Below, piece by piece: positions 2,343 to 15,852 of a stretch of 64,000 bases of DNA. A program made the position numbers and the translations under genes. A model generated the notes under the pieces. It did no database searches. It had not been told where the DNA came from and was given only the letters and a program-made list of their open reading frames with translations. This DNA is from Vicinamibacterales bacterium. GTDB taxonomy: Bacteria; Acidobacteriota; Vicinamibacteria; Vicinamibacterales; 2-12-FULL-66-21. The stretch spans positions 62,001-126,000 of the forward strand of contig DASSPH010000099.1 of assembly GCA_035699745.1 (NCBI GenBank). Direction: 5' to 3'. The stretch's first letter is position 1. Each line of letters opens with the position of its first letter.

Positions 2343-4526
2343 ATGGAAATCCTGATTGCGCTGTTGATCGCCGCGCTGGTGATGATCGCGCCGCTGATCG
2401 CCGCGGTGATCTCGTTCCTGCGGATCCGCGCGCTGCGCGGAGAGGTGGACGGGTTGCGCGCGCGGATCGGACGGCTCGAGGCGCGCGCCGAGGGAGAGGC
2501 GCGGGGAGCGAGAGAGGAAAGGGCGGCTGCACCCGTCGCGCGGGTGCCCCCTCCGCCACCGCGTGTCGACCCGGTGGCGCCCCCCGTACGCCCCGCCCCC
2601 GTACGGCCCGTCCCCGTACAGCCGGCAGCGCACGAGCCGGCGCTTCCCGAGTCCGAGCCCCCGGACTCCCTCGAGGCTCGCATCGGCGGGCGCTGGCTGT
2701 TGAACGTGGGGATCGCCGCGATCGTCATCGGCGTCGCCTACTTCGAGAAGCTCGCGATCGACAACAACTGGATCAGTGAGACCGCGCGCGTGATTCAGGG
2801 GGGCGTGTTCGGCGCGCTGCTGGTCGCCGCCGGCGGCTGGTTCGTGCGCCGCGGGTACCGCACCTACGGACAGATGATCACGGGCGGCGGCGTCGCGGTG
2901 ATGTACGTGTCGATCTACGCCGCGTTCAACTATTACCGGTTGATCGATCGCCCGGCCGCCTTCGTCATGCTCGTCGCCGTGAGCGCGCTCGGCGCCTGGC
3001 TCGCCGATCGGCACGCGTCACAGGGGCTTGCGATCTTTGCCGTCGGCGGCGGCTTTGTCACCCCGTTCCTGCTGCCCGGCAACACCGACGCGCAGGTCGC
3101 GCTGTTCACCTACGACGCCATCCTGATCGCCGGCACCGTCTTCCTCGCCGGACGCCGCGACTGGCCGTTCCTGCACGTCGTCAGCTACCTGTTCACGCTG
3201 ATCACGATCGCGGCGTGGGCGGATCGCTTCTACAACCCGTCCACGTACGCGCATTACGTCCGTACCGAGCTGTTCTTCACGCTCTTCTGCGGCATGTTCG
3301 TCGCAATCGCGCTGCGCTGCAGAGGCGAGGACGCGCCGGCGGCGCGGTTCGCGGCGCTGTTGTTGTGGACGGCGCCCGCCGCGTACTACCTCGCCTCGCT
3401 CGTCGTTCTCTCGTGGCACGCCGTGCCGTTCCTGGTCTGGTTGATTTGCGTGATGCTCGCCGGCGCCGTTCTCGCGGTGCGCCGGGCTCCCTGGATCGGA
3501 CTTGCCGTGTGGACCGCCGTCGCGGTTCCGCTCCTTGGATGGACCCAGGCGTACGGCGGCCTCGAGTGGCTGACGCCTGGCCTCGCCGCGATCGCCGGGA
3601 TCTACACCATCGCGCTCGCGGCGCAGCTCCGCATCATGGACGGCAGCCGGCCGATCGGTCCCGCTGAAATCGCCTGGCTGCACGGCAACGGGCTGGTGAT
3701 GTTCGCCGCCGCGTACCTGCTGCTCGAAGAGACGCACCTCGCCGTCACCGGTCCCCTGGCCGCCGTCTTTGCCGTCTGGCAGGGAGTGCTCGCCGCATCG
3801 CTGCCCGGCAGATCGCGCGATCACGCGCTCCATTTCGCCGGGCTGGCGTTCTCGCTGCTGACCGTCGCCGTGGCGCTGCAGTACGACGGCCCGGCGGTGA
3901 CCGTGGCGTGGGCCGCAGAGGGGGCGGCGCTCGTCGCGCTCGGTCTGCAGGAGCGGCGCGACTGGCTGCGCGCGGCGGGCGCGGCGCTGCTCGGCATCGC
4001 CGTGGTTCGCGCGCTCGAACTGCTCGTCACTCCGCCGCCGGCCAACTACGCGGTCATCCTGAGTCCTCGCGCGGCAAGCACCGCGTTCGTCGTCGCGCTC
4101 TGCTACGTCACCGCCTGGCTGCACTGGAGATACGCCGACCGCCGCGGCAGGGACGCCGGCATCGGCGCCGGCCTCCTGGTAGCGCAGTTCGTCACCGTTG
4201 CGCTGCTGACCCACGAGATTCGCGCGTTCTTCGCCGTCCGCCACATCCCGTTCCGCGGCGAACTGATGACATCCGTGACGTGGGGCGGGTACGCGACCGC
4301 GCTGATCCTCGTGGGTCTTTACCGGCGCTATGCGCCGTTCCGCTACTTCGGGATCGCGCTGTTCGGGATCACGATTTTGAAAGTGTTTTTCGGGGATCTG
4401 GCCGGACTGCAGCAGATCTACAGGGTCCTGAGCTTCATCGGCCTCGGCGTTCTGCTGCTGCTGACGTCCTACCTCTACCAGCGGATGCGGGGCGCGATTC
4501 TCGGAGGGAAGGGTCCGGACGGGTGA
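2343..4526 (+). CDS. DUF2339 polytopic membrane protein
   Basis: A large inner-membrane protein (727 aa) of the DUF2339 type; function unknown. It begins with one hydrophobic helix, then a short charged coiled segment (about residues 25-65) and a Pro-rich linker with repeated PxRPxPVxP-like motifs. More than twenty hydrophobic segments follow, starting near GGRWLLNVGIAAIVIG. A GTG 18 bp upstream would overlap the previous gene; the ATG at 2343 is preferred because it starts directly with the hydrophobic helix. It is likely cotranscribed with the upstream aas-like gene because of the 1-bp gap. Confidence 0.8.
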   Translation: MEILIALLIAALVMIAPLIAAVISFLRIRALRGEVDGLRARIGRLEARAEGEARGAREERAAAPVARVPPPPPRVDPVAPPVRPAPVRPVPVQPAAHEPALPESEPPDSLEARIGGRWLLNVGIAAIVIGVAYFEKLAIDNNWISETARVIQGGVFGALLVAAGGWFVRRGYRTYGQMITGGGVAVMYVSIYAAFNYYRLIDRPAAFVMLVAVSALGAWLADRHASQGLAIFAVGGGFVTPFLLPGNTDAQVALFTYDAILIAGTVFLAGRRDWPFLHVVSYLFTLITIAAWADRFYNPSTYAHYVRTELFFTLFCGMFVAIALRCRGEDAPAARFAALLLWTAPAAYYLASLVVLSWHAVPFLVWLICVMLAGAVLAVRRAPWIGLAVWTAVAVPLLGWTQAYGGLEWLTPGLAAIAGIYTIALAAQLRIMDGSRPIGPAEIAWLHGNGLVMFAAAYLLLEETHLAVTGPLAAVFAVWQGVLAASLPGRSRDHALHFAGLAFSLLTVAVALQYDGPAVTVAWAAEGAALVALGLQERRDWLRAAGAALLGIAVVRALELLVTPPPANYAVILSPRAASTAFVVALCYVTAWLHWRYADRRGRDAGIGAGLLVAQFVTVALLTHEIRAFFAVRHIPFRGELMTSVTWGGYATALILVGLYRRYAPFRYFGIALFGITILKVFFGDLAGLQQIYRVLSFIGLGVLLLLTSYLYQRMRGAILGGKGPDG

Positions 4527-4568
4527 CGTTTGCCGGAGCTCTGCCAGAGGGTTCATACTACCTGCCAC

Positions 4569-5264
4569 GTGTCGAAACCGCGCGGTGGGTATCCTCTGGC
4601 AGCTGCTGTCGCCGCCGCGGTCTGCCTCGGCATGGCCCCGTCCCGGGGCTCCGAGCCGCAGACCGGCCGGCTGCAAGGCCGCGTCACGATTACGGTTCCG
4701 GTCACGAAGGCGCCGCCGTCCGCCGCGTACGGCGCGCGGCGGGTGGAGAAAGGACCGGCTGAGACGGCCTCCGAGCTGACCAACGTCATCGTGTTCCTGG
4801 ACGATGCCCCGAAGCCGGCGGCTCTTCAGCCGACGCGGGCGCGGATCGTTCAGGAGAACGAGACCTTCGTCCCGCGCGTGGTCGCCATCACCCGCGGATC
4901 CACGGTCGATTTCCCCAACGCGGACCCCTTCTTTCACGACGTCTTCTCGCTGTCTCGCGCCGGAACGTTCGACCTCGGGTCGTATCCCCGCGGCCAGACC
5001 AAGTCGCAGCAGTTCCGCCGCGCGGGCCTCATCAAGGTCTACTGCCATATCCACTCGCACATGTCGGCGAGCATCATGGTGTTCGACCACCCCTACTTCA
5101 CCATCCCCCGCGCCGACGGGACGTTTTCGATCGACGACGTGCCGCCCGGGACCTACAAGGTCAGCGCCTGGCACGAGCGGATCGGAGAAAACACGCAGCC
5201 GGTCCGCATCGAGCCGGGGCGCCCCTCGGAAATTCACTTCGCGCTGCCGATAGCCTCCAGATGA
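4569..5264 (+). CDS. Exported cupredoxin-like protein with a C-terminal Ig/carboxypeptidase-regulatory-like region
   Basis: A predicted exported protein of about 231 aa, resembling the methylamine-utilisation/plastocyanin-like proteins found near sensors in Acidobacteriota. The chosen GTG start gives a signal peptide: a basic start, an AAAVAAAVCLG core and a cleavage zone around PSRGS. A longer TTG start at 4530 is possible but would put 13 polar residues before the signal. The mature part has a cupredoxin-like segment with a His near 'PFFHDVF', then the cluster CHIHSHM (plausible copper ligands), and ends in a 'GTFSIDDVPPGTYKVSAWHE' carboxypeptidase-regulatory-like strand pattern. Its stop overlaps the start of the HD-GYP gene (ATGA), so the two are probably translationally coupled. 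Confidence 0.7.
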   Translation: MSKPRGGYPLAAAVAAAVCLGMAPSRGSEPQTGRLQGRVTITVPVTKAPPSAAYGARRVEKGPAETASELTNVIVFLDDAPKPAALQPTRARIVQENETFVPRVVAITRGSTVDFPNADPFFHDVFSLSRAGTFDLGSYPRGQTKSQQFRRAGLIKVYCHIHSHMSASIMVFDHPYFTIPRADGTFSIDDVPPGTYKVSAWHERIGENTQPVRIEPGRPSEIHFALPIASR

Positions 5265-6952
5265 TGGCGCCGCGCACTCCGCGCTTCGTGGTCCGGACGA
5301 TGGCGACGACGTTTGCGACCGTCGTCTTCATTCTCGGCGCGGTGCTGCTGGTCGTGACGCTCACCGTCCGCGAGCGGATGCGGACCACGGTGATCGAGCA
5401 CCTGTCGACGCAGCAGGGGGTGCTGCGGACGCTCGAGCAGCGGCGCCTGGCGGAGATGCAGTCGCAGGCGCAGATGCTGGCGGAGTCCCCTACCGTCAAG
5501 GCGGCGATGGACACCTACCACTCGGAAGCCCGCATGGCGGACGGCGACGGGCGCACGCAGCTGCTCGTCACCGTCAGCCGCGAGCTCGAGGAGCTGGCGT
5601 CGCGGATCCGGCCCGACATCATCGCCGTCACCGACCCGGCCGGCCTGGTGATCGCCGCGTCGGGCCGCCGGCGGGCGGACTGGCCGCGGGAACTGCCCAA
5701 CAGCGCCGCGGCGGAGTTCGTCACCACGCCCGGCGGAATCTTCCGCGTCGCCGCGGCGCCCTTCGTCGTGCAGCAGACGCTCGTCGGCTACCTCCAGCTC
5801 GGGAGCGCGCTGGACGGCGACTATGCGGCGCAGATCACCTCGCTCTCCGGGACCGGCACCCTGATCGCGGCGAACGGCGCGGTCGTGGCGAGCACGCTGC
5901 CGCCGCGCGCCACCCGGGCGCTGACGCCGCCGGTGCTTGCCGCGATGCCCGACGCCGACATCGTGGATCTCGACGGCGAGCAGTACGCGGTCCGCACGCT
6001 GCTGCGGCATGGCGATCTCGCCGTCTACACGATGGACTCGATTGAAGCCTCGGCGCGTGCGATCCTCGGCACGACGGTGCGCGCGCTCGGCATCATCGCC
6101 TTGTGCTCGCTGGCGCTGGCGGCGATTGCCAGCATGTGGCTCGCGCGCACGCTGGCGCGGCCCATCGACACGCTGTCGCGATCGCTGACGGCGCTCGCCT
6201 CGTCGCGCGACTTCGACCGTCCGGTGGCGCGCACCGGATCGAGCGTCGAAGTCGATGCCCTGACCGACACGTTCAACTCGCTCATGTCGACCGTCGCCGC
6301 CGCCGAGGAGGAGACCCGCAGCACGTACGTCGGCGCCATACGGGCGCTCGCGCTGGCGCTCGACGCGCGCGATCCGTACACGGCGGGGCACTCCGAGCGT
6401 GTCAGCACGATCTCCGTGACGGTCGGCCATCACATGGGGCTGGGCGAAGACGACCTCGACACCCTCCGCCTCGGCGCGCTGCTGCACGACATCGGCAAGA
6501 TCGGCATCAGCGACGACGTGCTGCGCAAGGCGGGACCGTTGACGGCGGTCGAGTACGAGGCGATCAAGCAGCATCCCGTCACCGGAGCGCGCATCCTGCG
6601 GTCGGTCGCGTTCCTGGCGCGGCACCTGCCGATCGTCGAGCTGCACCACGAGCGGCCCGACGGCAAGGGCTACCCCTACGGCCGCCTCGCCGACGAGATC
6701 CCGGTCCTGGCGCGGATCGTCCACGTCGTCGATGCCTTCGACGCGATGACGAGCGCGCGCGCGTATCGTCCCGCGCGCAGCGCCGCCGAAGCGCTGCAGG
6801 AGCTCTGGCGGCACGCCGGATCGCAGTTCGACGCCGACGTCGTGCAGGCGCTGGCCGCGGTCGCGCCGACGCTGCGCCTCGAGCAGGAACGGCACGACGT
6901 GGCTCACGCCCACGCGCCGCGCTCGACCCTGGTCACCTTCCCACGCGCATGA
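5261..6952 (+). CDS. Membrane sensor with HAMP and HD-GYP phosphodiesterase domain
   Basis: A predicted cyclic-di-GMP phosphodiesterase (563 aa). An N-terminal helix (about 17-38) and a second one near 270-295 flank a periplasmic sensing region; a HAMP-like linker follows. The HD domain shows HDIGKIGI at about residues 409-416, and the diagnostic HHERxDGxGYP motif is near 462-472, so catalytic residues look intact. It overlaps the preceding cupredoxin-like gene by 4 bp, suggesting that the exported protein and the sensor act together. Its own last codons overlap the next ATG. The signal sensed cannot be told from sequence. Confidence 0.88.
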   Translation: MMAPRTPRFVVRTMATTFATVVFILGAVLLVVTLTVRERMRTTVIEHLSTQQGVLRTLEQRRLAEMQSQAQMLAESPTVKAAMDTYHSEARMADGDGRTQLLVTVSRELEELASRIRPDIIAVTDPAGLVIAASGRRRADWPRELPNSAAAEFVTTPGGIFRVAAAPFVVQQTLVGYLQLGSALDGDYAAQITSLSGTGTLIAANGAVVASTLPPRATRALTPPVLAAMPDADIVDLDGEQYAVRTLLRHGDLAVYTMDSIEASARAILGTTVRALGIIALCSLALAAIASMWLARTLARPIDTLSRSLTALASSRDFDRPVARTGSSVEVDALTDTFNSLMSTVAAAEEETRSTYVGAIRALALALDARDPYTAGHSERVSTISVTVGHHMGLGEDDLDTLRLGALLHDIGKIGISDDVLRKAGPLTAVEYEAIKQHPVTGARILRSVAFLARHLPIVELHHERPDGKGYPYGRLADEIPVLARIVHVVDAFDAMTSARAYRPARSAAEALQELWRHAGSQFDADVVQALAAVAPTLRLEQERHDVAHAHAPRSTLVTFPRA

Positions 6953-8151: not shown

Positions 8152-10146
8152 TCACCGCTGCCACCCCACTGAGAACGCGGTCCGGCCGTCACGAAGGCCG
8201 CGCGCGACGTCCGCGCGCAGCACGCCGAAGCCGAGCAGGGCGATCCGGAGACCGGCGCCGGCGTCGGCATGGAGGCGCGTGTCGGACGCCGGCAGGCCGC
8301 GCGCCGCGCGCGCGAGATCGATGAACACCGCCGGCGCGATCCGCAGCAGCCGCTGTCCCTTCGGCTCCACCCACCGCTGCACTTCCGCGGAGGCGAACGC
8401 GATCCGGCGGCCGAACACGCGGCCGTTCACCACGCCGTCGTCGAGCAGCGGGTGCGCGCGCAGCAGCACGTCGCGCGCGTGCCCCGTGTCGGCGCCGGGC
8501 CAGAGCGAGGCAGGCGCCGACGCGCTCGCGAATTGATAGCCGCCGCCCGCCATCCACAGCGTCCCGGACGTCGCGGCGTTCGATCGCCAGACTGCGCGCG
8601 CGTCGGCGGTGGCGAAGCGTTCCGGCGATCCGCGCCAGCCGCGGATGCCCGCCTCGACGCGCAGCCGATCGAGCACCGGCCAGAGTTGCACGCGCGCGGA
8701 TGCCGAGGCGGCGCGGCCGGCGCCCCTCCAACGATCGATCGCCGCGCCGCCCGCGACCCTGAACCGCGGCGTCAGCCAGTTGCCGACGCCCGCGCCGACG
8801 CTCGTCCGCGTCTCCTCGAACCGCGTCGCCGACGCGAACGTTTGCGTCTCGCGAAACGCGTCGATCGTCCAGACGCCTCCCGGACCGGGCGCCGAGTAGG
8901 ACGCGCCGACGCGGGGACGGTGCTCCCACCATCGCCATGCGATCTCCACCGCATCGCCGCCGCCGCTCACGTTGGAGAACGCCGCCGCGGCCTCGCTGTT
9001 GGCGACCGCGCCGAGTCCGAGCCCGATCCACGCGGGATAGGTACGCGGCGCGCGAGCGCGCTCGACCACCGTGGCGTCCACCTGCGCGCGGCCGTTCTCG
9101 ACGGGATGAAAGGTGACGCGCGCCGTCGAGACGGCCGGCAGATCGCGCACGCGCTTCTGCGCGAGCCGCAGCGCGTCAGGCGTCAGCAGCGCCCGCGGCT
9201 CGACGCCGATCGCGCTCGCCACCACCATGTAGCGCGTGTGCGCCAGCCCCTGGATCTCGACGAGATCGACCCGCGGTTCGCCGAGCGCGTTCCACGCCCT
9301 GAGCGCGTCGAGATCGCGGTGGCGCACGTACTCCGCGGTCGCGAGCACGCGCCACGCGTGCTGATCGCCGGGGTCCGCGGCGGTCGCACGCCGCGCGAAG
9401 CGGGCCGCGCCGTCCCAGTCCCTGGCGAGCGCCGCGAGTCCCGCCAGCTCGCGCCAGGGCGCGGCGGCGCCGGGACATGCCGCAGCCGCGGCTTCGAACG
9501 CGGCACGCGCCGCACGCGTGTCCCCTCGCTCCGCGCTCGTCAGCCCATCGGTCATCGACGACTGGCACGCGGGAGTGAGGCGGGGATCGATCCTGGCGTC
9601 AGAGGCGGGCGGAGTCTCCGGCGCGGGCGCCGGAGCGGACGGCGGCGGCGGCTGCACGACGGCCATCCAGCGGTCCGCCTTGCTCCAGCGGGCGTCGAAT
9701 GCGGACGCCGACAAGGATCGCGACGGCGCACGCGCGGGATCGTGGTGGACGACCGGCCCTCCGTCCGCCGCCGACACCACCACGACGTAGTGATAGCGTC
9801 CCGGGCGATCCTCGATCAAGGCGATGACCGGGCGGCCGAGCGTCAGCGCCGCGCGCAGGCGCGGCAGGTCTCCGGCGCCCGCGAGCAGGCGCCAGCCGCG
9901 CTCCTCGAGCGCGCGCGCGAGCACCGACGTGCGGATTCCGCCCGCCGACCAGTCCACCAGCGGCGCGAACGCGTCCGCGTAGACGTCGCGCGCGCCCCAG
10001 AAGCGCATCACCATCGCGGCGGCGGCGCCGCCGCAGAGCGCTTCGGTCTGCGGAAGGTAGGGAACCTGTAAGGGAGGCTGCGCGAGCGCGGGGGACGGAC
10101 CGGCCGCCGCGCAGAGCGCGACGGCCATGACGACCCGTTTCAGCAA
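8152..10146 (-). CDS. Exported C39-type cysteine peptidase fused to TPR, POTRA-like and Omp85-like barrel regions
   Basis: A 664-aa protein. Residues 1-22 are a signal peptide. Residues 27-165 resemble a papain-like C39 peptidase with candidate catalytic Cys38 (TEALCGG), His119 (RYHYVVV) and Asp136 (HHDPA). A Pro/Ala-rich linker (165-185) carries to a TPR-like helical region (about 195-290). Residues 291-366 look like a POTRA unit (LTPDALRLAQKRVRDLP then a beta-rich stretch). The rest is rich in short beta strands and ends 'GVLRADVARGLRDGRTAFSVGW', like an Omp85/BamA terminal strand. The first two parts match the PA2778 cysteine peptidase family, which is normally much shorter. The TTG start lies 3 bp after the stop of the PA2779-like gene, so the pair is tightly coupled. 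The peptidase call is fairly sure; the POTRA/Omp85 assignment is by pattern only. Confidence 0.68.
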   Translation of the reverse strand: MLKRVVMAVALCAAAGPSPALAQPPLQVPYLPQTEALCGGAAAAMVMRFWGARDVYADAFAPLVDWSAGGIRTSVLARALEERGWRLLAGAGDLPRLRAALTLGRPVIALIEDRPGRYHYVVVVSAADGGPVVHHDPARAPSRSLSASAFDARWSKADRWMAVVQPPPPSAPAPAPETPPASDARIDPRLTPACQSSMTDGLTSAERGDTRAARAAFEAAAAACPGAAAPWRELAGLAALARDWDGAARFARRATAADPGDQHAWRVLATAEYVRHRDLDALRAWNALGEPRVDLVEIQGLAHTRYMVVASAIGVEPRALLTPDALRLAQKRVRDLPAVSTARVTFHPVENGRAQVDATVVERARAPRTYPAWIGLGLGAVANSEAAAAFSNVSGGGDAVEIAWRWWEHRPRVGASYSAPGPGGVWTIDAFRETQTFASATRFEETRTSVGAGVGNWLTPRFRVAGGAAIDRWRGAGRAASASARVQLWPVLDRLRVEAGIRGWRGSPERFATADARAVWRSNAATSGTLWMAGGGYQFASASAPASLWPGADTGHARDVLLRAHPLLDDGVVNGRVFGRRIAFASAEVQRWVEPKGQRLLRIAPAVFIDLARAARGLPASDTRLHADAGAGLRIALLGFGVLRADVARGLRDGRTAFSVGWQR

Positions 10147-10149
10147 GGA

Positions 10150-10536
10150 CTAGTCGATGGCGACGATGATCAGGATGATCAGCAGGATGATGATGATCGT
10201 CGTCGTCGTGATGACGACCGTCGCACCACCCGCGAGGTCCTGGTTGACCGCGCGCGCCTGGCTCGCCGCCGCGCGGAGGTCATCCCCCTGCAGCGTCGCC
10301 AGCGCCGCTTCGGCGCGCTCGGTCGACAGCCCCGCCTTCGCGGCCACCTGCTTCACGGTCGGATCGTTCAGGAAGCTGCGGAGCGTTTCCCGGTCCGCCT
10401 GATCCTGGCTGATGCGCTGCTGGACCGCCTGGTCGAGCGCCGACTTGTTGATGACGTGGGTCTGCTGCGCCCACGCCGCCGGTGCGCAGAGCATCACCGC
10501 GAGCGTGGTGGCGAGGATTCGACGAAACATCTGCAT
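10150..10536 (-). CDS. PA2779-like small exported protein with AGG motif and C-terminal hydrophobic segment
   Basis: A 128-aa protein with a signal peptide (cleavage near AWAQ, residue 24), a charged helical middle (30-100) and the sequence NQDLAGG at 98-104. An uncharged Thr/Ile/Leu segment follows to the end (105-127). The order signal, helical region with 'AGLSTERAEAAL', AGG and hydrophobic tail matches the PA2779 family, whose genes sit beside a C39-like peptidase, as here. C39 peptidases classically cut after a double glycine, so the AGG before the hydrophobic tail is a candidate cleavage site (inference). A strong Shine-Dalgarno AGGAGG precedes the ATG. The tail lacks the Arg cluster of GlyGly-CTERM signals. 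Confidence 0.65.
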   Translation of the reverse strand: MQMFRRILATTLAVMLCAPAAWAQQTHVINKSALDQAVQQRISQDQADRETLRSFLNDPTVKQVAAKAGLSTERAEAALATLQGDDLRAAASQARAVNQDLAGGATVVITTTTIIIILLIILIIVAID

Positions 10537-10570: not shown

Positions 10571-11746
10571 CTACGCCCCGTGACTAGCATCTTTTGTACC
10601 CATGTCGCGCGCCAGCAACTGTTCGAGTTCCTCGGCATGGGGCGCGCGCGCCAGCGCCTCGCGCCGCTCGATCAGGCCCTGGCGCACCAGTTGCGCCAGC
10701 GACTCCTCGAACGTGAACGAGCCCTGCTTGCGGGTGATCGTGATCTCCTGATGCAGATGCTGCAGCGCGTTCTTGCGGACGTGCTGCCGCGCGCCGTAGC
10801 TCACCATCAGCAGCTCCGCCGCGGGCACGAGGCCGCCGCCCGTGCGCGGCAGCAGGGTCTGCACCATCACCGCCGCCAGCGCCATCGACAGCTCCTGCCG
10901 GATGGTGTTCTGCCGCTCGTCGGGAAACGAATCGGCGATCCGTCCGACCGTCGACGCGGCGTCGGTCGTATGGACGGTCGACAGCACCAGGTGGCCGGTC
11001 TCGGCGGCCGCCAGCGCGATCCGCATCGTCTCGGGATCCCGCATCTCGCCGACGACGATGATGTCGGGCGCCTGCCGCAGCGAGGCGCGCAGCGCCGTCG
11101 GGAAATCCGGCGCGTCCACGCCGATCTCGACCTGCTCGACGACGCCGGCATGATGCTGGTGCTCGTACTCGATCGGGTCTTCGATGGTGACGATGTGCCG
11201 CGCGTCCCGGCGGCTGATCTCGTCGACCAGCGCGGCAAGCGTGGTCGTCTTGCCCGAGCCCGTGGGACCGCCGATCAGCACCAGTCCGCGAGGCAGGTGC
11301 GTCAGCAGCTCGACGCTCGACGGCAGCCCGAGCGAGGACAGCCGCGGGACGCGGGTGGGCAGCGCGCGCAGCGCGGCGGCCGCCCGGCCGCGCTCGCGAT
11401 GCAGGTTGATCCGGAAGCGTCCCAGCCCCTGGACGCGGAACGAGCCGTCGGCGATCTGCGACTGCCGGTAGATGCGGCGCGCGTGCGGCGGCAGCGCCGG
11501 CAGCACGGCTTCCTCGATGTCGATGCCGTCGATCGGGCCGTCCGCGAGCGGGCGGACGCGGCCGTCGACACGGATCGACGGCGGCGCGCCGGCGACCAGC
11601 AGCAGGTCGCTGCCCCCGGCGTCCGCGAGCCGCCGCAGCCATCCCTCGACCCGCGCGGTATCGCCGAGCGCCGATCCCCTGGGCGCCGACGTCGAGGCGT
11701 GCAGTTCGGCGATCAGCCGGTCGATGTCCTCGGAGTCGCGTCCCAC
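10571..11746 (-). CDS. pilT: PilT/PilU-like secretion ATPase
   Basis: A 391-aa hexameric ATPase of the type IV pilus retraction family. Visible motifs are Walker [12 protein letters not shown] (about 160-170), the Asp box '[10 protein letters not shown]', Walker B '[13 protein letters not shown]' and the His box '[13 protein letters not shown]'. It is about 45 residues longer at the N-terminus than typical PilT. No other pilus gene is in the window. It lies 34 bp upstream of the PA2779-like gene on the same strand, so the ATPase and the peptidase pair may form one transcript. The start is GTG with the hexamer TAGGAT exactly 6 nt upstream and no Shine-Dalgarno, which suggests a leaderless message. 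Confidence 0.9.
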
Positions 11747-14248: not shown

Positions 14249-15676
14249 CTACGCCGGCTTGCGGCCGACGCCGATCAGGCTGAGGCCGCGGCCGATGCGC
14301 AGCGCTTCCATCCCTTTGGCGACCGGCAGCAGGCGCTCGAACCAGCGCATCTGCCGCGGATTCAGATCGCGGCGTCCCAGCTGCTTGTTCATCCACCAGC
14401 CGGGGACCCCCATCCGGTTGAACTCGTCCATCTTCACCAGCTCGAAGCCCGCCGCCTGCATCTTGCCGCGCAGCTCCGGCTCGGTGTAGCGGCGCACGTG
14501 GCCCAGCGCCTCGTCGCAGGCGCTGTACAACGACGGATGCGCCGGCACGAGGATGATCGCGTGGCCGCCGGGCTCGAGCAGATCGTAGTAGGCGCGCAGC
14601 ACCTGTTCGTCCGGCCCGATGTGCTCGAGCACGTTGAGGCAGACGATGGTGTCGAGCCGCTCCGGCTTGAGCTCGGCGTACACCGCCGGATTCGAGAGAT
14701 CCCCCTTGATCGTGATCACGTTCTCCAGGTGCCCGAGCCGCCAGTTCGCCATCTCGACGTAGAGCGGGTCGTTGTCGACGCACACCAGCCGCTCGCGATC
14801 GAGCAGCAGCTCGGTGAAGTTGCCGATGCCACAGCCGGCCTCGAGCACCCGGCCGCCGAGGTAGTGGCGGAACTGCTGCAGGATCCAGCGGTTCAGCCCG
14901 CGCGCCCGCCGCATGCTCTGGAGCACGTAGTAGCCGTCGTGCGTGGTGAACCGATCGTCGACGAAGCGGTACTTGATCAGCGTCCAGATCGCCGACACCG
15001 CGTCCTTCCAGCCGATCTTCTTGCCCTCGGCCACGCTGCGCCCGTGATAGCTGATCGGAACTTCGTAGAGGCGGATGTTCCACTGCGCCAGCTTGGTCGT
15101 CAGCTCGGGCTCGATGCCGAAGCGGTTGCTGTAGAGGGGCGTCTGCTTCAGGATGTCGGCACGGACGGCCTTGTAGCAGGTCTCCATGTCGGTGAGGTTG
15201 ATGTCGTTGAGGATGTTGGTGAGCCAGGTGAGGAAGTGGTTGGCGACGCCGTGCCAGTACAGCAGCACCTTGCGCTGCCCCGCCGACGCGAACCGCGAGC
15301 CGAACACCGCGTCGGCCTTCCCCTGGAGAATCGGCCCGACGAGCGCCGGGTAGTCGGCCGGATCGTATTCGAGGTCGGCGTCCTGGATGAGGCCGATGTC
15401 CCCGCGCATCTCCCGGATCGCGCGGATGATCGCCGCCCCCTTGCCCATGTTGTGCGGCTGGCGGAACACGCGAATCCGCGGGTCCGCCGCCGCCAGCCCC
15501 TCGAGGATCTCGGCCGAGCGGTCGCGGCTGCCGTCGTCCACGCAGACCAGCTCCATCGGCAGCGCCACCGGGCTGGCCAGTACGCGCCGGATGATGGTGC
15601 GGAGCGTGCGGGCTTCGTTGTAGACGGGGATGAGGATGCTGAGCAGCGGCTCTGCGGATGTCGGCGACTCGGCCAT
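14249..15676 (-). CDS. Family 2 glycosyltransferase fused to a SAM-dependent methyltransferase
   Basis: A 475-aa two-domain protein. Residues 10-240 are a dolichol-phosphate-mannose-synthase-like GT2 domain (LSILIPVYNEARTL, CVDDGSRDRS, DADLEYDPADYP), probably cytoplasmic with an undecaprenyl-phosphate or nucleotide-sugar partner. Residues about 285-475 are a class I methyltransferase with motif I VLEAGCGIGNFTE, the acidic 'CVDNDPL' and 'CLNVLEHIG'. This order is known in cell-surface glycan loci. The ATG at 15676 is chosen because the protein then starts a few residues before the GT2 strand. A start at 15706 is possible, but frames further up only translate the octamer repeat. Confidence 0.87.
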   Translation of the reverse strand: MAESPTSAEPLLSILIPVYNEARTLRTIIRRVLASPVALPMELVCVDDGSRDRSAEILEGLAAADPRIRVFRQPHNMGKGAAIIRAIREMRGDIGLIQDADLEYDPADYPALVGPILQGKADAVFGSRFASAGQRKVLLYWHGVANHFLTWLTNILNDINLTDMETCYKAVRADILKQTPLYSNRFGIEPELTTKLAQWNIRLYEVPISYHGRSVAEGKKIGWKDAVSAIWTLIKYRFVDDRFTTHDGYYVLQSMRRARGLNRWILQQFRHYLGGRVLEAGCGIGNFTELLLDRERLVCVDNDPLYVEMANWRLGHLENVITIKGDLSNPAVYAELKPERLDTIVCLNVLEHIGPDEQVLRAYYDLLEPGGHAIILVPAHPSLYSACDEALGHVRRYTEPELRGKMQAAGFELVKMDEFNRMGVPGWWMNKQLGRRDLNPRQMRWFERLLPVAKGMEALRIGRGLSLIGVGRKPA

Positions 15677-15716
15677 CGTCTGCGGCAAAACACAAGAGCG
15701 TATCATGGCGCGGATC

Positions 15717-15852
15717 GGGCCATCGGGCCATCGGGCCATCGGGCCATCGGGCCATCGGGCCATCGGGCCATCGGGCCATCGGGCCATCGGGCCATCGGGT
15801 GATCGGGCGATCGGGTGATCGGGTGATCGGGTGATCGGGTGATCGGGTGATC
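15717..15852. repeat. Tandem octamer array, 17 units
   Basis: Seventeen uninterrupted 8-bp units: ten GGGCCATC, then one GGGTGATC, one GGGCGATC and five more GGGTGATC. The block change from one sequence type to another suggests local unit amplification. It fills most of the 199-bp gap between two reverse-strand genes. There are no spacers, so it is not CRISPR. Confidence 0.95.

Follow-up and report, generated by a model that had tools for sequence, protein, structure and literature searches.

When a cysteine peptidase and an outer-membrane barrel are encoded as one chain, beside the gene for a small exported protein with a double glycine, the question arises whether the chain cuts its neighbour and carries it out of the cell or whether the barrel serves some other purpose. 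Such a locus lies in the 64,000-nucleotide stretch of DNA analysed here (the window; contig DASSPH010000099.1 of assembly GCA_035699745.1, positions 62,001–126,000), from a Vicinamibacterales bacterium whose genome comprises 6.3 Mb in 110 contigs. Three co-directional minus-strand genes encode, from 5′ to 3′, a PilT-family ATPase, an exported protein of 128 residues and a peptidase–barrel protein of 664 residues (Table 1). Domain order, intact catalytic residues, a conserved junction, gene pairing and a single clade of fused proteins, as read from sequence and structure prediction, lead us to suggest, tentatively, that the last two genes form an envelope unit in which a C39 peptidase would process the small protein and the barrel would export it. 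The processing step, a cut of the small protein at its glycine junction, we regard as probable.

The large protein scored above the cut-off with two Pfam models of the C39 peptidase, PF13529 (29.1 bits, cut-off 24) and PF03412 (25.1 bits, cut-off 22), each of which also matched 31 of 32 fusion proteins at E ≤ 0.01, and an NHLM exporter-peptidase model matched 29 of the same 32. Gln33, Cys38, His119 and Asp136 did not vary when the window protein was aligned with 12 relatives. More widely, the Cys/His/Asp triad and the upstream Gln were kept in all fused or split C39 proteins covering those sites, and the only triad exceptions were in barrel-less kin, L062 and L063 having Ser in place of the Asp and L126 having Gln (L and G numbers denote loci and genomes throughout). 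The PA2778 model NF033920 matched all 32 fusion proteins at E ≤ 0.01; the window protein covered positions 4–246 of its 255 and scored 46.7 bits, under the curated cut-off of 150. At E ≤ 1 the window protein matched neither the FapD model NF058616, which weakly matched two of the 32 fusion proteins, nor, in Pfam, a patatin domain; the enzyme domain is C39. A PDB sequence search returned TPR (tetratricopeptide repeat) proteins as the matches at E ≤ 0.001, and a PF03412 search of the host genome, with one candidate scored, gave no match at E ≤ 0.001, to which we attach no evidential weight. By sequence, the large protein is a C39 peptidase, and cleavage after a double glycine is predicted for it.

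An AlphaFold2 model of the large protein, built from a 32-row alignment (mean predicted local distance difference test score, pLDDT, 90.4; predicted template-modelling score 0.87), shows a C39 domain, then a loose linker and six TPR helices, followed by a POTRA domain, a helix and a barrel to which DSSP assigns 15 strands. The top structure matches in the PDB were TamA of Pseudomonas aeruginosa (Z 22.4) and of E. coli (Z 22.0), the comparison with TamA 8us1 giving Z 22.4 and an rmsd of 5.3 with 340 residues aligned, followed by BamA (Z up to 21.7) and FhaC (Z 19.6); Foldseek alone ranked BamA first (E 7e-13). The matches span approximately model residues 260–642, many alignments beginning at 260–270 and running through the POTRA domain, with a structure-aligned identity of 12–18%. 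Over residues 290–664 of the window protein no curated profile scored above threshold, weak matches being confined to NF047779 (E 0.038) and TIGR03303 (E 0.12), and among the 32 fusion proteins single relatives matched the Omp85 model PF01103 (four) and the POTRA model PF07244 (one). Because detection of the barrel from sequence is weak, its assignment rests on fold comparison, and by its predicted structure the large protein is a member of the Omp85 superfamily, whose proteins mostly assemble or translocate other proteins. Two residues lie at what we take to be the Omp85 loop-6 RGF/Y and FxDxG positions. At the first, Arg563, Arg occurs in all 33 fused proteins covering the site and in nine of 11 split ones, the other two having Lys, although the remainder of the motif is lost (RAH); at the second, Asp610, Asp occurs in all 32 covering fused proteins and in 10 of 11 covering split ones.

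The single 664-residue open reading frame (ORF), the model and the TamA and BamA matches thus bear out the original prediction that a C39 peptidase is fused to an Omp85-type barrel in one chain, with a Cys38–His119–Asp136 triad and a POTRA domain. The barrel had been expected to have 16 strands; in the model DSSP counts 15, and a helix lies where strand 1 was expected. The three outcomes named beforehand as refuting the prediction (no POTRA or barrel, no triad, no conservation of the AGG motif of the small protein) were none of them found.

The fused gene is not peculiar to this assembly. A survey of 60 relatives included 12 genomes of the family to which the window belongs; 11 of them have the gene, in G002 and G010 as fragments at contig ends, and the twelfth, G003, is 57% complete. 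A scan of a species-genome collection with two peptide patterns, both within the C39 domain and so blind to barrel genes without C39, found 42 related loci in Acidobacteria (also Vicinamibacteria and Bryobacterales), Gemmatimonadetes, Eisenbacteria, Latescibacterota, a deltaproteobacterium and Rokubacteria; because nearly all of them come from metagenome-assembled genomes, single odd phyla may be mis-binned. The whole architecture lay in one ORF at 28 of the 42 loci. Among the other 14, the frame of L044 matched model positions 6–590 only, five loci were cut by contig ends (L046, L051, L055, L056, L058), three had interrupted frames (L049, L053, L060), three encoded C39 and barrel separately (L059, L061, L064) and two had C39 only (L062, L063); 31 of the 42 entered the large-protein alignment. 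In a barrel tree of 43 rows, limited to aligned pieces of at least 200 residues, a single branch (support 100/99) separated the 33 fused rows from the others, and 98% of the bootstrap trees contained one fused/split change. This tree held 10 of 14 split rows (L120, L131, L138 and L061 were absent) and counted as split L119, which has no C39 and a very long branch. It fits a single fusion event and, being unrooted, also allows loss or splitting. An assembly or frameshift artefact was considered and rejected, since the architecture is whole in one ORF at two-thirds of the loci (28 of 42) and the fused proteins group as a single clade.

Two irregular copies are recorded here in their own right. 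At L049 (7866–9056) the fusion frame stops after 397 codons within a long contig with no small gene nearby, being either a broken gene or a frame error, and L016 (G012:C41:32489-35620) holds, at approximately 1453–1635 and inside the contig, an isolated C-terminal barrel fragment (a 149-residue frame) that may be the remnant of a decayed fusion gene.

The small gene accompanies the large one at 36 of the 42 loci; it lies directly upstream in the same orientation in 34 of them and downstream in two sister loci (L033, 3951–4340; L056, 1731–2123). It was not found at L049, L058, L059, L062, L063 or L064, of which L058 is probably one broken locus with L056 of the same assembly. The window's small protein scored 40.9 bits with the PA2779 model NF033919, just above the cut-off of 40 (40.3 bits in the genome search, where the family had one match), and the same model matched 35 of 35 small proteins at E ≤ 0.01. 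By the NCBI cut-offs, then, the partner is PA2779 whereas the large protein is not PA2778, so that the likeness to this pair of families noted at the outset holds for the small protein but, formally, not for the peptidase. The AlphaFold2 model of the small protein (pLDDT 80.8) comprises a signal helix, four helices (31–102), a loop at Ala-Gly-Gly and a helix (111–127) that, as modelled, fits a membrane anchor. The tail was described originally as hydrophobic and uncharged; the first term stands, but the tail does carry one charged residue, Asp128, the last of the protein. The fold gave no useful match in the PDB (best Foldseek E 3.0; VIA Z at most 3.9), an absence that excludes nothing.

We surveyed the junction in 55 small proteins, a set that left out a further G082 copy (C219) and those of G015, G028, G051 and G271. 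Gly-Gly was present in all 36 fusion-linked proteins, the window's included, and AAG in all seven split-linked ones and, read by eye because the alignment is shifted there, in both proteins of the barrel-less L126 locus, while the nine unlinked proteins examined read AGG, QAG, RAG, AAG or AGL. A junction glycine was therefore found in 54 of 54 small proteins with a C39 partner. The sole examined protein without such a partner, that of L119 in genome G064, has SMS instead; G064 has a single match to the model's C39 portion, a weak one (E 8e-7) inside a 1803-residue frame elsewhere, and this one case is a weak pointer to loss of the glycine where a dedicated C39 is absent. Further Gly-Gly pairs ahead of the junction occur in five of the 55. 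Over 35 rows, the mean pairwise identity was 0.97 at the Gly-Gly, 0.39 in the helical domain and 0.46 in the tail region (34 of the 35 proteins found with phmmer were aligned, L060 being left out as cut at its start). In sequence, the junction looks like a required cleavage site, in which the double form is not universal and one glycine is. The predicted conservation of AGG was accordingly found, as Gly-Gly in the fusion-linked homologues and as Ala-Gly in the split systems.

Those split systems emerged from the phylum as a whole. A small-gene match occurred in at least 18 of 247 genomes, all such counts being lower bounds because few candidates were scored per genome (at most five in the barrel search). 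Six of the 18 have the fused gene, one (G086) has a C39–TPR gene without a barrel match and 11 have a separate TPR–POTRA–barrel gene of 516–675 codons, just before which, in 10 of the 11, stands a C39 frame of 161–457 codons (lengths are of stop-to-stop frames; the genes are shorter). Small, C39 and barrel genes are consecutive at six loci (L120, L125, L130, L131, L132, L133), and L061 from the 42-locus scan is a seventh example. Counting matches that cover at least 200 positions of the TPR–POTRA–barrel part, and leaving aside short C-terminal Omp85 matches in G012, G025, G069, G186 and G264, we found this unit in 17 of the 18 small-gene genomes and, among the matches listed, in none of the rest of the 247 (Fisher p 2e-25, uncorrected for relatedness). 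L119 (G064:C164:33000-44000) holds, at 4195–6191, the small gene and the TPR–POTRA–barrel gene without a C39 gene.

The pairing with a small AGG protein, as first described, holds for the fused form, but some Acidobacteriota carry several small genes elsewhere in the genome. We found four in G082, three in G106, two in G262 and one in G281, none part of a C39–barrel gene pair; one G106 gene lies on the same contig as such a pair, approximately 4 kb off and on the opposite strand, and the other unlinked ones are on other contigs. Loci L122, L123, L124, L127, L128 and L129 (G082 and G106) show several such PA2779-like genes per genome. The neighbours of unlinked small genes include DNA polymerase I and a protein kinase and, beside some of those in G082 and G106, an alpha/beta hydrolase (PF20091), a TonB-receptor-type barrel (PF25183) and a GWxTD protein. 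Both sides thus co-reside in genomes even when unlinked, and one C39–barrel machine may serve several dispersed small proteins.

The mechanism that we tentatively prefer would begin with Sec-dependent export of the PA2779-family protein, kept anchored by its C-terminal hydrophobic helix. The Omp85 barrel would seat the large protein in the outer membrane with the POTRA, TPR and C39 domains facing the periplasm; C39 would then cut at Ala-Gly-Gly, freeing the four-helix domain from its tail, and the TPR/POTRA part would pass the freed domain to the barrel and so to the cell surface. According to PMC5557850, C39 peptidases cut at Gly-Gly and sometimes Gly-Ala, usually within ATP-binding cassette (ABC) exporters at the cytosolic face, and the secretion of amyloid through the pore FapF depends on FapD, a Sec-exported periplasmic C39 peptidase, and on the Cys of its active site, the target of FapD being unclear; it is by analogy with these enzymes that we propose a cut at the glycines here. 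Of the self-contained processing and export device envisaged originally, the processing half has gained a conserved candidate cut site and an intact triad, while export would be a further step for which PlpD, whose enzyme stays in the periplasm, is a contrary precedent (PMC11116518). We nevertheless rank export first, narrowly, because small gene and barrel unit keep together where C39 is a separate protein and, in G064, where there is no dedicated C39, which argues that it does more than anchor a protease. A fuller version, in which the tail-anchored protein is freed at the double glycine and secreted through the fused barrel and the split three-gene form serves several dispersed substrates, is possible but more doubtful.

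Several observations weigh against this preferred mechanism. The distribution is patchy: in the order, outside the window's family, the full-length fusion was found in four of 48 genomes and a C-terminal fragment in one, and in the phylum the TPR–POTRA–barrel unit occurs in at least 17 of 247 genomes and is fused in at least six. G064 pairs the small gene and barrel with no dedicated C39, and, conversely, C39–TPR relatives without a barrel match exist (L126; frames of approximately 350 residues in G137 and G091), so the peptidase step needs no barrel. The count of 15 strands, with a helix in the place of strand 1, bears on the geometry of any pore; the helix, on the side of the lateral gate, could be a plug or a fault of the prediction. 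The tail matches the helical domain in its degree of conservation, beyond the need of a plain anchor, and could therefore exceed that role, as in leader–core precursors. A single POTRA domain and a compact four-helix cargo are unlike the known translocators of unfolded chains. Cleavage, the membrane that holds the tail and passage through the barrel are steps that we infer. Lastly, PlpD, itself a chain of enzyme, POTRA and Omp85 barrel, keeps its enzyme periplasmic (PMC11116518).

This precedent underlies a serious alternative, which we nonetheless consider unlikely: the Omp85 part might do no more than tether the protease to the inner leaflet of the outer membrane, with the cut domain remaining in the periplasm or envelope and nothing crossing the barrel. 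The authors of the PlpD study argue against secretion of the patatin domain (PMC11116518), and the existence of C39–TPR relatives without a barrel match is in keeping with such an arrangement. A protease anchor would not, however, require the TPR–POTRA–barrel unit to keep with the small gene even when unattached to C39, nor would it account for G064, where unit and small gene occur without a dedicated C39.

It is improbable, in our view, that the tail is itself the product, the helical part being a leader of the Nif11/NHLP type from which C39 would free a 24-residue hydrophobic peptide for the Omp85 part to insert into or move across the outer membrane. The C39 peptidases of ABC exporters do cut after a leader at Gly-Gly (PMC5557850), and the matches of the NHLM exporter-peptidase model (29 of 32), the weak matches of two Nif11 models to one each of 35 small proteins (E 0.006 and 0.007) and the conservation of the tail region, no lower than that of the helical domain, point in the same direction. 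Yet the tail is a plain predicted helix suited to span a membrane, and the stretch from glycine to tail is very different in fused and in split systems, which is tolerable for an anchor but not for a defined peptide product.

That the best structural matches are TamA and BamA would also suit an assembly factor for an outer-membrane protein, regulated by the C39–small protein pair, for example through a plug that is cut away, and one unlinked small gene each in G082 and G106 follows a TonB-receptor-type barrel gene (that of L123 scoring 541 bits with PF25183, and that of L128 falling in the same sequence cluster). This we think slightly less probable again, as no single outer-membrane client is common to most of the loci, an OmpA-type cluster being present at eight of 62 and a PF13505-type cluster at three. 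It is very improbable that the barrel carries its own C39–TPR passenger to the cell surface: the order of enzyme, POTRA and barrel is that of PlpD, for which such autotransport of type Vd was first proposed (PMC4104836), but that model has been challenged by topology data (PMC11116518), TPR and POTRA here intervene between enzyme and barrel, and the substrate candidate, having a signal peptide and an anchor, is expected on the periplasmic side.

The coordinates of the features discussed are given in Table 1. The peptidase–barrel gene has a TTG start 3 nucleotides past the stop of the small gene with, by eye, no obvious Shine–Dalgarno sequence, whereas the small gene is preceded by an AGGAGG ribosome site (also by eye); this spacing and start suggest that the two genes are translationally coupled. 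No match to the system was found in a plasmid collection.

Table 1. Features of the locus in window coordinates; all lie on the minus strand.
Feature	Residues	Window position	Remarks
PilT-family ATPase gene		10571..11746 (-)	34 nucleotides upstream of the small gene
Small gene, PA2779 family, likely substrate	128 in all	10150..10536 (-)	NF033919 and AlphaFold2 model
AGG junction	102-104	10225..10233 (-)	Proposed cleavage site
Hydrophobic tail helix	111-127	10156..10206 (-)	Sequence and model
Peptidase–barrel gene	664 in all	8152..10146 (-)	Signal peptide, C39, TPR, POTRA and Omp85-type barrel in one chain
Signal peptide (LLKR...ALAQ)	1-22	10081..10146 (-)	By eye
C39 peptidase domain	26-167	9646..10071 (-)	PF13529 and PF03412 above cut-off; hidden Markov model (HMM) row
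Catalytic Cys	38	10033..10035 (-)	Alignment and HMM rows
Catalytic His	119	9790..9792 (-)	Alignment and HMM rows
Catalytic Asp	136	9739..9741 (-)	Alignment and HMM rows
Six-helix TPR region	192-286	9289..9573 (-)	PF13428 23.9 bits, cut-off 23.5; helices in model
Single POTRA domain	292-362	9061..9273 (-)	Beta-alpha-alpha-beta-beta in model (model 270-340)
Helix between POTRA and barrel	370-383	8998..9039 (-)	Model 348-361; at expected place of barrel strand 1
Omp85-type beta-barrel	385-663	8158..8994 (-)	15 DSSP strands; model and structure matches
Arg in LLRAHP	563	8458..8460 (-)	Place of Omp85 loop-6 RGF/Y-type motif
Asp in FIDLA	610	8317..8319 (-)	Place of Omp85 FxDxG motif

The PilT gene, which was suggested at the outset as a possible part of the same transcript, scored 375.6 bits with TIGR01420 (cut-off 319.1), the lowest of four such genes in the genome. 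A PilT homologue lies directly upstream in L023 and L025–L028, is cut by the contig end in L024 and is missing in L042; these loci form one barrel-tree clade with the window (93/90), and PilT is adjacent at six of the seven. The association does not extend beyond these close relatives, the sole PilT-type match in the flanking DNA of the remaining 35 loci being an opposite-strand ATPase in L064, and a role for PilT is possible only as a lineage-specific addition.

An all-versus-all comparison of 596 heuristically called ORFs from 62 loci found no recurrent partner beyond the fusion and the small gene at most loci; the calling was rough, its largest small-gene cluster holding 15 loci compared with 36 of 42 by HMM. 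The next-largest neighbour clusters were cluster 2 (eight loci, exemplified by an ORF that runs antisense within the fusion) and the OmpA-type cluster. One member is annotated in the latter and one in the PF13505-type barrel cluster. The OmpA-type cluster is a loose one, near the fusion in L032, L035, L037, L040, L049, L052, L055 and L058 at varying distances and on varying strands, its annotated member (L032, 4755–5807) being an OmpA/DUF4398 protein. Elsewhere in the window, at approximately 15720–15800, a short direct repeat, translated as MARWPDGP units, opens the minus-strand ORF 14249–15787 and is probably non-coding DNA before the true start of that ORF.

In relation to known systems, the combination is a variant of familiar kinds and new to the literature searched. 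TamA, BamA and FhaC have the POTRA and barrel fold in common with it (Z 19–22), as well as what we take to be the loop-6 Arg and FxDxG Asp sites, but here there is a single POTRA domain, preceded by TPR and C39 domains, and the aligned identity is low. The PA2778/PA2779 families likewise set a small exported PA2779-family protein beside a C39–TPR peptidase; the peptidase described here falls under the PA2778 cut-off and adds POTRA and an Omp85 barrel, for which PA2778 is too short if, as a table in PMC3697988 appears to indicate, it has 292 codons. The Fap system also directs a Sec-exported periplasmic C39 peptidase and an outer-membrane barrel at exported proteins, but FapD and FapF are separate proteins and FapF is a trimeric, 12-stranded, autotransporter-like barrel with a coiled coil rather than an Omp85 protein (PMC5557850). 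PlpD and the patatin–Omp85 proteins (formerly type Vd) similarly join enzyme, POTRA and Omp85 barrel in one chain, whereas the enzyme here is a C39 peptidase with TPRs and a partner gene adjoins. A survey of Omp85 proteins lists WD40, patatin and metallo-type extra domains with no C39 peptidase among them, and its main text, when searched, contained neither 'peptidase' nor 'TPR' (PMC4104836). We found no description of a C39–Omp85 protein and no functional paper on the PA2778/PA2779 families in the literature searched, which covered no preprints and few subscription papers.

If our reading is correct, the union of a leader-type peptidase, an Omp85 barrel and a double-glycine partner would tie substrate maturation in the style of type I secretion to the outer membrane. 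The PA2778/PA2779 families, named from Pseudomonas genes, would gain a concrete hypothesis, namely that the glycine junction is where the C39 enzyme cleaves the protein encoded next to it.

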